A stretch of 64,000 nt of DNA from Chloroflexota bacterium. GTDB lineage: Bacteria > Chloroflexota > Anaerolineae > Aggregatilineales > J027. Under the pieces are notes generated by a model. It searched no databases. It saw nothing but the letters and a program-made list of their open reading frames with translations, and was not told where the DNA came from. Both the position numbers and the translations under genes were made by a program. The DNA is taken from the NCBI GenBank assembly GCA_013112715.1, contig JABFGB010000028.1, positions 1 to 64,000 on the forward strand, given 5' to 3'. Positions 58,566-64,000 of the stretch are shown here, one piece after another (the stretch's first letter is position 1; each line of letters starts with the position of its first letter).

Positions 58566-59123
58566 ATGTCAAAGAATATGAAGAATGAACGTGGTCAGTC
58601 TGCTCTAGAAACCGCCATTATCCTGATTGCCTTCGTGGTGGTCGCCTCAGTGTTTGCCTTCGCCATTCTGTCTTCCGGCAGCAAATCCACTGAAAAAGGC
58701 CAATCCGCCATTAACGCTGGTTTGGAAGGTGTGCAATCGTCCATGACCGTCAAGGGCACTGTTATCGCCGAAGGCACTGCTGGTAACGTGGATGATGTCG
58801 TCTTCACATTAGCACTGGTTTCGGGTGGTGATCCGGTAGATTTGACCGCTACTGCTGGCAATAACACCGTCGTGATTGGTTATCGTGATGAAGCCCAACT
58901 GGTGAATGAAGTGACTTGGACCGTCGAATGGATCGGCGCGAATGATGGTGACGAACTGCTCGAAGACGGCGAATTGGCAGAAATCACGGTTGATCTCGCC
59001 ACGCTGTCCCCCCGCCTACAGGCCAGCACTGCCTTCACCATCGAAGTCAAGCCACCCAAAGGCGCGGTCATCAATGTCACCCGCACCACCCCCGCCGCGA
59101 TTGAAGCCGTTATGGAACTGTAA
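58566..59123 (+). CDS. arlB: Archaellin (ArlB/FlaB-like archaellum filament subunit)
   Basis: 185 residues, GAGGGAG upstream. The N-terminus is a class III signal peptide: short basic leader MSKNMKNERG, predicted cut after Gly10, then QSALETAIILIAFVVVASV with Glu at +5. This strongly resembles archaellins of methanogens such as Methanomicrobiales (LEAAIVLIAFVVVAAVF pattern). After the hydrophobic N-terminal helix comes a beta-rich outer domain (about 60-185), acidic and lysine-poor. It would be processed by an ArlK/PilD-type peptidase and polymerised into the filament. It is followed by a strong hairpin and a terminator, suggesting a separate, highly expressed transcript. Confidence 0.9.
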   Translation: MSKNMKNERGQSALETAIILIAFVVVASVFAFAILSSGSKSTEKGQSAINAGLEGVQSSMTVKGTVIAEGTAGNVDDVVFTLALVSGGDPVDLTATAGNNTVVIGYRDEAQLVNEVTWTVEWIGANDGDELLEDGELAEITVDLATLSPRLQASTAFTIEVKPPKGAVINVTRTTPAAIEAVMEL

Positions 59124-59420: not shown

Positions 59421-60245
59421 ATGAATCTGGAGCAACGAGTGACGATGCTGGAGGAAGAAGTTCAACTTCTTAAGAACCAGATACAAACTACGCTTCTCGC
59501 AATACAAGAACAAATTCTCAGCAATACTTATCCTAACCTACGTGGTGAAGGCAGCGAAGCCGCACAGTTGATTGAGCATGTACCGGAAGGGTCGGTGAAT
59601 TCGCAGGCAGCTAAGGGTGTCGATAGTCTCCGAGGGGTTAATCGGGTTAGTTTTGAAAGCGCCGATCAGCCTAGTGTCGAGACACCTGTTGTCGGCAAAC
59701 CCGCCAGTACCCCGGCGTCAGCCAGTCCATCCCCTAAGCTCCTTGAATCTGAAGCATCATTGACGAGTAGGCAGACAGCCGAGATTGATTGGGCCAGCCT
59801 CAACAAAATGGACGAGTGGATTTGTCGCAAAATTGACAAAATCGGTATCCACCGTACCCACCGATTAATTGAGTTCTATGCCGAGACCAAGCGGTTTAGT
59901 GAGAATGTGACCAAAACGTTACTGCAATTGATCGCGCTGTATGAGGAAGACGTTGATCCGGCAGAGGAAGAACGCCATCGCAACCAACCCTTTAACCTCG
60001 ACGACACTGTTACGAGTTTTGATCCACCCATCCGCACTTACTATGCTGAATCCGATATGTCATCGGTACACGAGAATCGTGAAATATCGGCCCGCCGCCA
60101 ACCTGATCCTGAATCTGATTTCAGTGGTAATGGCAGCACTGGTCACACCGACCCCGACCAACCCGATGCGCCGCGTAAGATGATCTTGAAACTCATTGCT
60201 GGCCTCCAAAACGCCGGCATGGATTGGAAACACCCCAATGGATAA
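59421..60245 (+). CDS. ArlD/E (FlaD/E)-like archaellum accessory protein
   Basis: 274 residues from the ATG at 59421 (GGGAGAG upstream). It has an N-terminal coiled coil (MNLEQRVTMLEEEVQLLKNQ), then a flexible Pro/Ser/Ala-rich linker. A conserved-looking helical domain (about 130-185) follows, with WASLNKMDEWICRKIDKIGIHRTHRLIEFYAET, which resembles the FlaD/FlaE domain found in the archaeal switch complex. A variable C-terminal region ends WKHPNG. In archaea ArlCDE links chemotaxis (CheF/CheY) to the motor. The domain match is from pattern memory. Overlaps the next gene by 8 bases. Confidence 0.65.
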   Translation: MNLEQRVTMLEEEVQLLKNQIQTTLLAIQEQILSNTYPNLRGEGSEAAQLIEHVPEGSVNSQAAKGVDSLRGVNRVSFESADQPSVETPVVGKPASTPASASPSPKLLESEASLTSRQTAEIDWASLNKMDEWICRKIDKIGIHRTHRLIEFYAETKRFSENVTKTLLQLIALYEEDVDPAEEERHRNQPFNLDDTVTSFDPPIRTYYAESDMSSVHENREISARRQPDPESDFSGNGSTGHTDPDQPDAPRKMILKLIAGLQNAGMDWKHPNG

Positions 60246-60750
60246 GGCAATTACAACCGCCCTCTTGATTGTGATTAGCATGGTCATGGCGCTGATGCTG
60301 TTTAATGTCGCCTATCCTGCCGTGATTGAAGGCGGCGACTCCATGCGAAATATGGCAAATCGGGCCGAACAGGAAATGAAAAGTGATGTGACGATCATCC
60401 ACAGCGCCGCCGAACTCGATCATACGGGTTGGTGGCAGGACACCAATGGCAATGGTGATTTTGAGGTGTTTGTGTGGGTGAAAAATACAGGTTCGCTGCG
60501 CATCACTGGCTTGGAATATCTGGACATCTTTTTTGGGCCAGACGGCGCGTTTACCCGGATTCCGAGCCAAACCAATGCCAATGGAAGCTATCCGTATTGG
60601 ACGGCGACTGTGGAAAGTGGCACCGATTGGACACCATCTGCGACTTTACGCATCTCTATTCATTATGAGTTTCCGCTGACAACGGGCCACTATTTTATCA
60701 AGGTCACTACGCCCAATGGCGTTAGCGACGATGATTTTATGGGGATTTGA
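60238..60750 (+). CDS. ArlG/ArlF-like archaellum stator component
   Basis: 170 residues. It begins directly with a hydrophobic pilin-like helix (ITTALLIVISMVMALMLFNV), preceded by only a few residues, without a cleavable class III leader. A beta-sandwich-like outer part follows (about 50-165; VFVWVKNTGSLRITGLEYLDIFFG, then ISIHYEFPLTTGHYFIKV and TTPNGVSDD). This one-span plus beta domain plan is typical of ArlF and ArlG, the periplasmic-side stator pieces. Which of the two it is cannot be decided. It overlaps the previous gene by 8 bases and is 3 bases from the next. Confidence 0.7.
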   Translation: MDKAITTALLIVISMVMALMLFNVAYPAVIEGGDSMRNMANRAEQEMKSDVTIIHSAAELDHTGWWQDTNGNGDFEVFVWVKNTGSLRITGLEYLDIFFGPDGAFTRIPSQTNANGSYPYWTATVESGTDWTPSATLRISIHYEFPLTTGHYFIKVTTPNGVSDDDFMGI

Positions 60751-60753
60751 GTC

Positions 60754-61872
60754 ATGGACTCGATATTGGCGGCATTTTTCGTGATGTTCTTGATGGTCTT
60801 TGGCGTGCTAACGCTGACGGATGAATTTGTCAACACCCAGACCACTGTTCAAGAAGCGTGGCAGGTGATGGATGAACGCCGCGACGATCAGGTCGGTACA
60901 CAGTTGGTCGGGCTTGAGGCACACACTAATGACAATGGCGCACTTATTCTCTTGACCCTTCGCAACACAGGCATGGTCAAACTATCCGACTTTGCGAGGT
61001 GGGATGTGTTTATCCAATATATGGACGATGTTGAACCATCAGGGTATCACATTGACCACCTACCGTATACTCCCAACGACCCCACCATCGAAGGGTGGCT
61101 AATTAATGAAATAACCCTCGATGACGGACAACCGGAGGCGTTCGACCTGAATATCCTTAACCCCGGCGAATCCGCCACTATGCGATTGCGACTTGTACCC
61201 CCAATTGGGCCGGGTCGAGCCGCGATGATCCGGATTGCCATGCCCAACGGCGTCAGCACTTCCTATACGTTTGCTCGCAGTGCTCTACCTGTCCTCGATA
61301 CCAACAGCGGTATGATCCTTGCCAGTGCTGGGACTGCCACCCTATCGAATGCCATTCTTGCCGCTAGTGACCCCGATAACGAAGCGATGGATTTGATCTA
61401 TGCGGTGACACTACCCCCGGTACAAGGGAATCTCAATTTGTCGGCCTTTACACAGGACGATATTAACCAAAACCGCGTCACCTATACTCACACGGGCAGC
61501 GGCCATGATGATTTTCAAGTGACCCTGACCGATGGTGAAAATGTGGTTGGTCCATTCATCGTCTCTATCACCATTAACGAACCCCCGAAGGTTGTCTCGA
61601 ATGGCGGTATGACCTTGAGCACTGGTACGAGCGCCCCGATTACTACCTTAGCCACAAGCGACCCCGACACCCCTCTCGCCGAGCTCATCTACACCGTAAC
61701 CACTTTACCCTCACAAGGTACACTCAGCCACATGACCTTTTCGCAGGCCGATTTGGATGGTGGGCTTGTCATCTATACCAATGTCGGGGGCAGTAGCGAT
61801 TCCTTTCAATTCTCGGTCACGGATGGAGTTACGACGCTCGACCCTTTGACCTTTAACATTACGGTGAATTAG
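60754..61872 (+). CDS. ArlF/ArlG-like protein with two CSPG/cadherin-type repeats
   Basis: 372 residues. An N-terminal span (about 4-24) and a beta-sandwich region (about 45-175; LEAHTNDNGALILLTLRNTG, RIAMPNGVSTSYTF) match the preceding gene's plan. It is then extended by two about 90-residue modules (about 185-275 and 280-372). Each carries a TLSN/LSTG start, SDPDTP or SDPDNE, LIYAVTLPPVQG or LIYTVTTLPSQG, and FTQDDINQNRVTYTH or FSQADLDGGLVIYTN. These are the hallmarks of CSPG (cadherin-3 type) repeats, which are extracellular. Archaeal ArlF has no such tail (archaeal ArlF is about half this length). The protein would project into the envelope. Confidence 0.8.
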   Translation: MDSILAAFFVMFLMVFGVLTLTDEFVNTQTTVQEAWQVMDERRDDQVGTQLVGLEAHTNDNGALILLTLRNTGMVKLSDFARWDVFIQYMDDVEPSGYHIDHLPYTPNDPTIEGWLINEITLDDGQPEAFDLNILNPGESATMRLRLVPPIGPGRAAMIRIAMPNGVSTSYTFARSALPVLDTNSGMILASAGTATLSNAILAASDPDNEAMDLIYAVTLPPVQGNLNLSAFTQDDINQNRVTYTHTGSGHDDFQVTLTDGENVVGPFIVSITINEPPKVVSNGGMTLSTGTSAPITTLATSDPDTPLAELIYTVTTLPSQGTLSHMTFSQADLDGGLVIYTNVGGSSDSFQFSVTDGVTTLDPLTFNITVN

Positions 61873-61883
61873 GAGCGAGAACC

Positions 61884-62591
61884 ATGTTAGCAGCGCAATC
61901 TGAAGGCCGAAAAATTATCTCCTCTGGTAACACCGAGCTAGATGCCAAAATGGGTGGTGGCATTCCGCTGGGTTCGCTGATTCTGGTTGAAGGTGCATCC
62001 GGCGCGGGTAAATCCGTTCTTTCCCAGCAAATTATGTGGGGGGCGCTCCAAGATAGCTATCTGGTGACCCTATTCACCAGCGAAAACACAGTGCGCAGCC
62101 TGATGGCTCAGATGCAAAGTATTAATTTGGACATCCTCGATTATTTGCTACTCGGCAAATTTAGGATGCACCCGATGGCGTTGGCCCGTCTCGGTTCTTC
62201 AGCCCCGGACAAGCTGCTGCGTGTACTGAAAGGCATCCGGGGTCGTGACCTTATTGTGATTGATTCCTTTACCGCCGCCATCTCACATGCCGCCACCAGT
62301 GTCCAAATTGTCAGCTTCTTTGAGCAATGCAAGCGCCTGTGTGGAGAAGGGGTCACCATCATGATAACCCTGCATCCCGACGCCGCCGATCATGAATTGA
62401 TGAACCCACTGCGTTCGATGTGTGATGCCCATTTGCAGTTGCGTGCCGAACAAGATGGTCAGCGCTTGGTCAAGACCCTCCAAGTCGCCAAAGTGCGCGG
62501 GGCATCCAGTAGCACCGGCGCGATTGTTGGCTTCGACGTTGAGCCGGGTTGGGGGATGCGTGTCATCCCAATTAGCAAGGCCAGAGGATAG
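61884..62591 (+). CDS. arlH: Archaellum motor ATP-binding protein ArlH (FlaH)
   Basis: 235 residues of the KaiC/RecA-like fold. GGGIPLGSLILVEGASGAGKS holds Walker A (about residues 36-43), and DLIVIDSFTAAIS is Walker B. The degenerate C-terminal segment includes KVRGASSSTGAIVGFDVEPGWGM. Length matches archaeal ArlH (about 230). ArlH binds ATP without strong hydrolysis and docks on ArlI as part of the motor. It follows the ArlF-like gene by 11 bases and precedes arlI by 6, the standard H-I order. Confidence 0.93.
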   Translation: MLAAQSEGRKIISSGNTELDAKMGGGIPLGSLILVEGASGAGKSVLSQQIMWGALQDSYLVTLFTSENTVRSLMAQMQSINLDILDYLLLGKFRMHPMALARLGSSAPDKLLRVLKGIRGRDLIVIDSFTAAISHAATSVQIVSFFEQCKRLCGEGVTIMITLHPDAADHELMNPLRSMCDAHLQLRAEQDGQRLVKTLQVAKVRGASSSTGAIVGFDVEPGWGMRVIPISKARG

Positions 62592-62597
62592 GTTGAC

Positions 62598-64000
62598 ATG
62601 GCACAGACAGTTCTGCCTTTTACTCCGGTAGCCGCCAGCAACGAACAAGGCAATGCCCTATTCGCCAGCCTGCCCGCCAATTTTCAGGAGGCGTGTCAGG
62701 CGTCGGATTTCTTGTTTGAATATGTGCGCCGTCTACCCATTGAGGAAATTGGCGTCCCATCCTTCTATCCCAAACCTGCCCGCAGTTTGGGGGGACTAGA
62801 TTATAAGAACTTGATCTATCCGATCAAAGAGGGTCTGTTTGTACATATTTACCCGGATAAGGTGGGGGCACGCGACCATCATGTTGCCATCGAACCCACC
62901 CTTGTCGTGGATATCGAAAATCTTTTGCCGCAGCTAGAGACAAAATTACTTGCCTATGCCGAAAAAATCGGGGCGATTGACGACAAGGAAGAGAAAAAAG
63001 CCTATCTGAACAAATTGGTGGATAACCTCTGTGTCGTAACCCCCAAGCCCGTCAATAATGGGCGCAAGGGAGATAAGATTCAGGTGACCCCGGCGGAACT
63101 GCGGGCCATCAAATACCGTGTCATTCGGGATAAGGTCGGCCTCGGCCTATTACAGCCCCTACTGCTTGACCCGTACATTGAGGACATTAGTTGCAGTGGC
63201 GTCGGCCATATCTTCATTGAACACAAGATATTTAAGAGTGTGCAATCTTCGATCAGCTTTCCTACCCATGATGCGGTGGATGAATTCGCCGTATGGTTGG
63301 GGGAATGGATCAAAAACCCCGTTACTGTGCGTAACCCGTTAGTGGACGCCGTGCTGCCTGATGGTTCGCGTATCAATATCGTCTATGGTCAGGAAATTTC
63401 CAAGCGTGGCAGCAATTTCACCATCCGTAAATTTAGCGGCACACCCACTAGCGCCCTTGAATTGGTGGATTTTGGCACGCTCAACTATATGATGCTCGGT
63501 TACCTGTCGTTGATGTTGGAAGAGGGCATGAATATGTTTGTGGTCGGGGCGACGGCCTCCGGCAAAACAACACTGCTTAACGCCATCACGACTTTTATGA
63601 AACCCGACGCCAAAATTGTGACCATCGAGGATACGCCCGAAGTCTATGTGCCTCATGCCAACTGGGTACAGGAAATGACCCGACACGGCGCAGGTGACAA
63701 AGGCGGCAGCAACGTTGGCATGTTTGAACTGCTCAAAGCCGCACTCCGTCAGCGTCCTGACCGCATCATCGTCGGCGAAATCCGTAGTATCGAGGCGGTG
63801 GTCGCCTTCCAAGCCATGCAGACAGGGCACGGCGTTATGTCCACCTTCCATGCCGACTCTGTTGAGAAACTGATTCAGCGTCTCACCGGAGACCCAATCA
63901 ACATCCCTAAGACCTATATTGACAACCTCAATCTGGTTGCCATTCAGGGGGCTGTACGTTTGGCGGACGGGAAATCGGCTCGCCGCGTGAAGAGTATCAA
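62598..64000 (+). CDS. arlI: Archaellum motor/assembly ATPase ArlI (partial, C-terminus beyond right edge)
   Basis: 467 residues are visible with no stop, so the gene runs off the window. A type II/IV secretion superfamily ATPase: a 300-residue N-terminal region (with LLDPYIEDISCSG and NIVYGQEISKRGSNFTIRKF), Walker A VVGATASGKTT (about residue 313-323), an Asp-box TIEDTPE, and Walker B RIIVGEIRS. The His box is TGHGVMSTFHADSVEKLIQRL. The N-terminal DISCSG and IRKF motifs are shared with archaeal ArlI/GspE-2 ATPases. It powers filament assembly and rotation. The expected next gene is the membrane platform ArlJ. Confidence 0.93.
   Translation, partial: MAQTVLPFTPVAASNEQGNALFASLPANFQEACQASDFLFEYVRRLPIEEIGVPSFYPKPARSLGGLDYKNLIYPIKEGLFVHIYPDKVGARDHHVAIEPTLVVDIENLLPQLETKLLAYAEKIGAIDDKEEKKAYLNKLVDNLCVVTPKPVNNGRKGDKIQVTPAELRAIKYRVIRDKVGLGLLQPLLLDPYIEDISCSGVGHIFIEHKIFKSVQSSISFPTHDAVDEFAVWLGEWIKNPVTVRNPLVDAVLPDGSRINIVYGQEISKRGSNFTIRKFSGTPTSALELVDFGTLNYMMLGYLSLMLEEGMNMFVVGATASGKTTLLNAITTFMKPDAKIVTIEDTPEVYVPHANWVQEMTRHGAGDKGGSNVGMFELLKAALRQRPDRIIVGEIRSIEAVVAFQAMQTGHGVMSTFHADSVEKLIQRLTGDPINIPKTYIDNLNLVAIQGAVRLADGKSARRVKSI

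Follow-up and report, generated by a model that had tools for sequence, protein, structure and literature searches.

An ArlF Stator Protein Carrying Tandem CSPG/Cadherin_3 Modules in an Archaellum Operon of the Anaerolineae

The ArlF Protein and Its Operon

The window analyzed here, a stretch of 64,000 nucleotides, contains a tight row of genes comprising arlB, an arlCDE-like gene, arlG, arlF, arlH, and arlI (Table 1), i.e. an archaellum operon of Chloroflexota, class Anaerolineae. An ORF of 372 amino acids with an ATG start occupied exactly the arlF position. It was separated by 4 nt from the stop codon of arlG and by 12 nt from arlH. The start of arlG was moved from TTG at 60196 to an ATG shared with its homologues, which begin with MDKAI or MDKVI. 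ArlH lacks a receiver domain in the order to which the window belongs. In the genome, arlI is followed on the same strand by arlJ, pilD, pilN, and a pilO-like gene.

Table 1. Features of the arl operon in the window, and receiver-ArlH fusions in other loci of the class
Feature	Position	Strand	Evidence
arlB, archaellin with class III signal peptide	58566..59123	+	Pfam Arch_flagellin 3e-25; NCBIfam TIGR02537
arlCDE-like gene	59421..60245	+	Pfam Arch_fla_DE 0.0024, under cut-off; synteny
arlG, partner stator protein	60238..60750	+	NCBIfam ArlG 1e-7 versus ArlF 4e-5
arlF, stator protein with C-terminal CSPG/Cadherin_3 tail, 372 aa	60754..61872	+	Pfam, profile search, structure model
arlF N-terminal helix, aa 1-48, membrane anchor	60754..60897	+	Helix 2-48 in model
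arlF Ig-like beta-sandwich, aa 49-178	60898..61287	+	FlaF Z 18.1, FlaG Z 14.2; profile E=7.4e-13 to FlaF
arlF CSPG/Cadherin_3 module 1, aa 179-274	61288..61575	+	Pfam; CSPG4 fragment Z 11.1
arlF CSPG/Cadherin_3 module 2, aa 275-372	61576..61869	+	Pfam; end-to-end alignment with module 1
arlH, KaiC-like	61884..62591	+	Pfam, NCBIfam
arlI, ATPase, continues past the window	62598..64000	+	NCBIfam NF058587 4e-157
Receiver-ArlH fusion	L042:9163-10233		Pfam
Receiver-ArlH fusion	L044:10122-11189		Pfam
Receiver-ArlH fusion	L036:8052-9125		Pfam

The preliminary description had taken the protein for an ArlF/G-like stator component, and its identity could be narrowed to ArlF. Against the curated NCBIfam and Pfam ArlF cut-offs, it scored 14.5 of 110 bits and 19.0 of 28.4 bits, respectively, both below threshold; none of the searched Thermoplasmatota or Thermoproteota genomes reached the NCBIfam cut-off either, which leaves this threshold without discriminating power in the present case. 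The match to Pfam FlaF_Ig-like (residues 61-140) remained under its cut-off, and that to NCBIfam ArlF (residues 6-78) was weak. A profile built from the ArlF of the window and the ArlFs of relatives from named genomes was searched against PDB sequences. It retrieved Sulfolobus FlaF with an E-value of 7.4e-13 (profile positions 27-170) and FlaG with only 2e-4. An AlphaFold2 model calculated from the alignment of relatives had a mean pLDDT of 94.8 and a pTM of 0.73. Residues 47-175 of this model superimposed on FlaF from S. acidocaldarius with a Z-score of 18.1 (rmsd 1.5, 114 residues, 26% identity), and FlaG was less close (Z 14.2). No class III signal peptide was found by eye: the protein begins with MDSILAAFF, and a K/R-G motif is missing ahead of helix 2-48. 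Because the preceding gene encodes ArlG, the protein is ArlF specifically. Residues 1-178 are a genuine ArlF, the archaellum stator cap. Foldseek also listed many cadherins, S-layer proteins, and Ig proteins, which superposed poorly over multi-domain stretches; no kinship was drawn from them.

The remaining residues, 179-372, form a tandem of two CSPG/Cadherin_3 modules. Pfam Cadherin_3 (PF16184) matched two stretches in this region (E=2.6e-41, 140 bits versus a cut-off of 25.5), overlapped by a Big_9 match. The tail part of the profile retrieved CSPG4 from the PDB (4.2e-11), and residues 180-276 of the model superimposed on the CSPG4 fragment 7n8x_B with a Z-score of 11.1 (rmsd 1.9, 97 residues). 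The two CSPG/cadherin-type repeats noted at the outset were thus confirmed, with a size nearer 97 residues than the 90 first estimated. The tail begins exactly at the end point of short ArlFs. The modules can be aligned with each other over their whole length, and DxD and DG positions are kept in both. Their most conserved positions resemble those of the fold, and the two modules of one protein resemble each other no more closely than modules from different proteins do. The tail is very acidic and nearly free of lysine and arginine (1-8 K/R per tail, constant across the order). In the genome of the window, both Cadherin_3 matches are these two modules. Of the wall- or protein-binding repeats suggested previously, the wall-binding kind was not borne out by Pfam, as searching the tail at E-values of up to 1 gave no match to a peptidoglycan- or wall-binding domain (LysM, SH3b, and the like).

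Distribution and Conservation of the Tail

With arlH as the anchor, the arlF region was read in the order of the window, in other orders of the class, in other classes, and in 80 named genome contigs including archaea. Of the 23 arl loci of the order that could be read, 22 had the tail. Twenty of these carried two modules (in L014 the core is cut by the contig end and in L034 the gene is split over two frames), two carried a single module (L016 and L035), and one genome of the same order, L027, had no tail, with the neighboring arl genes in place. Residues beyond the ArlF domain amounted to 194-210 for two modules and 98 for one, as compared with 0-9 in the ArlFs encoded at roughly three dozen arl loci from other Chloroflexota and at about 28 from archaea of the named collection (Thermoplasmata contig L138 excepted). 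A CSPG tail was seen in none of these other Chloroflexota or archaeal loci. The arrangement is not due to chance, since 21 further genomes show an architecture of this kind. The notion that other orders encode the tail in a gene of its own was rejected: ORFs between arlF and arlH encode receiver-domain proteins or unassigned short proteins there, and no such module occurred in any locus outside the order.

In a tree of ArlI, the order formed a single clade (support 100/99). All short forms of other lineages fell outside this clade, and the reduced forms were nested inside it. The simplest history would be a single gain, in which ArlF was fused once to CSPG/Cadherin_3 modules in the ancestor of this Anaerolineae order, followed by later losses.

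The tail was conserved as well as or better than the Ig core, with a mean pairwise identity of 44% versus 35%. For the closest pair, dN/dS was about 0.15-0.3 in core and tail; other pairs were partly saturated. The tail is kept under purifying selection. This already disfavors neutral accretion, i.e. the chance capture of a CSPG segment that is merely tolerated. One genome without a tail and two with a single module would fit such an origin, but its retention by 22 of 23 loci from several families of the order, in register with the end of ArlF, makes it highly improbable.

Within the order, Cadherin_3 was found in 22 of 24 genomes with arl genes and in 1 of 130 genomes without (Fisher p=3e-23, with no correction for kinship), and 42 of the 45 matches sat on ArlF. 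The module is almost exclusive to ArlF in this order. Homotypic binding between the tail and further cellular proteins with CSPG repeats was considered and is unlikely, as these genomes encode hardly any such proteins.

Several neighbors of the arl loci were recorded as well. Genes for PilN and PilO-like proteins, often together with pilD, lie 3' of arlJ in almost every arl locus of the order whose flank is long enough, and in many further loci of the class; a published count gives 34 of 244 (PMC13319060). Those at L013:6702-8536 lie outside the window (68701-70535 in its numbering), and genes of this type take the same place in most of the loci L016-L054. The C-termini of the PilO-like proteins differ by lineage, with LysM domains in L050 and L054, a weak laminin-G-like match in L021 and L023, and no Pfam assignment in the rest. 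Directly after arlJ, many loci of the order encode a short membrane protein (L013:3742-4302 and equivalents) with a conserved C-terminal LLSSVF and no Pfam match. In L036-L049, from several other families of the class, ArlH carries a fused response-regulator receiver domain at its N-terminus (Pfam 1e-14 to 1e-17), and chemotaxis genes of the CheA and CheB types lie directly 5' of arlH-I-J in L042, L044, and L046. Chloroflexota reportedly lack the known CheF adaptor (PMC12488501), which makes the receiver-ArlH fusion a candidate chemotaxis link.

C-termini of Archaeal ArlFs

Archaeal genomes were surveyed for Halobacteriota, Thermoplasmatota, and Thermoproteota. The ArlF model matched in 153 of 295, 95 of 243, and 43 of 250 genomes, respectively. 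The statement that archaeal ArlF is short does not hold throughout, as some ArlFs from Thermoplasmatota and Halobacteriota carry other C-terminal modules. No archaeal ArlF with a CSPG tail was found; with the CSPG matches in the window protein confirmed, neither of the two refuting outcomes named in the preliminary description occurred.

Among the fetched cases from Thermoplasmatota, ArlFs of about 355-400 residues with a propeller-like repeat tail were found in L138-L143, followed by arlG and, where the flank shows it, arlH. The tail of L138 matched designed six-bladed propellers (Pizza6) in the PDB with 1e-6 and showed a periodicity of 42 residues (p about 0.002); the tails of L139-L143 were assigned as propeller-like by alignment to L138. 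A profile of the six propeller-type ArlFs gave no match in the PDB, and a single-sequence model of L138 was unusable (pLDDT 37). The ArlF of L144, also from Thermoplasmatota, carries three PKD domains (1.8e-49) and is followed by arlG, with no downstream arlH within the fetched piece. The adjoining ArlG (L144:2605-3654, 349 residues) is itself composed of about three Ig-like units.

Long ArlF frames in Halobacteriota resulted from N-terminal over-reading in the fetched cases, except for L150 and L152, in which the Ig domain is duplicated (a G916 frame of similar length was left out). In Thermoproteota, no C-terminal tail was detected on an arl-locus ArlF. Three candidates (L156:2681-3751, L159:2358-3434, and L168:1636-2709) were rejected as stand-alone ArlF-like proteins with an insertion of about 140 residues inside the Ig domain, their flanks being free of arl genes as far as fetched, and four others (L157, L158, L163, and L164) matched over an N-terminal segment only and were left uncounted. 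A contig filed as Candidatus Fermentibacteria (L073) has arl genes very near those of the Methanosarcinales contigs L066 and L071 and is probably a mis-binned archaeal contig.

The propeller and PKD folds are unrelated to that of the CSPG tail; therefore, these tails represent independent fusions. The presence of different modules at the same end of archaeal ArlF suggests that modules contacting the envelope have a general slot at the ArlF C-terminus. As a tentative generalization, which we rate at slightly less than even odds, it may serve as a modular docking port to which separate lineages (the Anaerolineae order, Thermoplasmatota with an NHL-like propeller or with PKD domains, and Halobacteriota with a duplicated Ig domain) fused different extracellular modules, adapting one rotary stator to a variety of envelopes, some of which lack an archaeal S-layer.

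Proposed Role of the Tail and Comparison with Known Systems

The current view of archaeal ArlF is that it caps ArlG filaments and binds the S-layer, a contact that swimming requires (PMC13319060, PMC8667602, PMC12024892). How the stator is anchored in the Chloroflexota envelope, which lacks an archaeal S-layer, has been called unknown (PMC13319060, following PMC12488501). A 2025 paper compared ArlF of three Thermoplasmatales without an S-layer with that of S-layer species and reported no distinct motif (PMC12448462).

We propose that the ArlF with its CSPG tail acts as an envelope-contacting stator anchor and assign this reading a probability of roughly 55%. The ArlG filament and its ArlF cap would cross a periplasm-like space, and the acidic beta-sandwich tail would continue outward from the cap. 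There it may contact a protein or glycan of the envelope, much as archaeal ArlF contacts the S-layer, and such a contact would keep the stator from turning with the rotor. The tail is most simply seen as an envelope-contacting or reach-extending module because it is clade-specific, conserved, and located on the very subunit that touches the envelope. That it extends or re-targets the stator anchor is plausible.

Some points argue against this reading. Binding to peptidoglycan or the wall is not known for CSPG modules, and L027 as well as the other archaellated Chloroflexota do without the tail. All other archaellated lineages of the phylum that were examined have a plain ArlF of about 170 residues, including a Litorilinea-like genome (L050, 6.0 Mb; 174 residues) that encodes an archaellin and a PilO with LysM. 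Accordingly, the earlier view of the tail as a general adaptation of the archaellum to a bacterial envelope did not hold. The PilN and PilO-like proteins encoded beside these loci could provide the anchor instead, as has been proposed for PilN/PilO-LysM in L. aerophila (PMC13319060).

The modules might also be a passive spacer that merely lengthens ArlF toward a farther layer and has no specific binding of its own. A module number varying between two, one, and none would agree with this, as would the lack of any extra likeness between modules of one protein and the fold-related look of the top-conserved positions. A spacer at the far C-terminus, however, gains reach only if its tip touches something, and both a conservation at least equal to that of the Ig core and the constant, near-total lack of K/R across the order speak against it. 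We regard a mere spacer as unlikely.

In other contexts, repeats of the CSPG/cadherin type are characteristic of adhesive surface proteins. The tail might accordingly be an adhesion or surface-sensing module, or bind the archaellum filament or other appendages, with PilN/PilO as the load-bearing anchor; PilN and PilO homologues do adjoin arl loci across the class, some PilO with LysM. On the other hand, the modules are fused to the stator cap, which in archaea is the very subunit in touch with the envelope, and tail-bearing genomes hardly ever have Cadherin_3 on another protein. This reading appears still less probable than a spacer, and the envelope-contacting anchor remains our preferred reading.

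The ArlF family and the CSPG/Cadherin_3 module are both known. As already supposed in the preliminary description, their fusion was not found described in openly searchable papers (subscription papers and supplements lay outside this scope), and among papers on archaella with cadherin or PKD, no title or abstract concerned such a fusion. Tailed ArlFs are specific, removable parts for testing stator anchoring in bacteria and archaea. They also show how a rotary motor transferred between domains of life may be refitted via domain fusion on one subunit.

ArlF/FlaF of S. acidocaldarius (PDB 4p94, 5tug, and 6pbk) shares with the protein described here the helix, the Ig-like sandwich, and the operon place between arlG and arlH. 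It ends with the Ig domain, whereas the ArlF of the window adds about 194 residues of CSPG modules. The short ArlFs of other Chloroflexota, e.g. that of L050, have a homologous core and the same operon order; L050 differs in that its ArlF has no tail and its PilO-like protein contains LysM domains. With the CSPG/NG2 repeats (PF16184; CSPG4 structures 7ml7 and 7n8x), the tail has the fold, the sequence signature, and the tandem arrangement in common. In metazoan receptors or bacterial adhesins, those repeats are strung together in long arrays, whereas one or two copies are present on a bacterial motor protein in this order. The ArlFs of L138-L144 from Thermoplasmatota likewise combine an ArlF core with a module at the same C-terminal position, but they are archaeal and their tail folds are unrelated.
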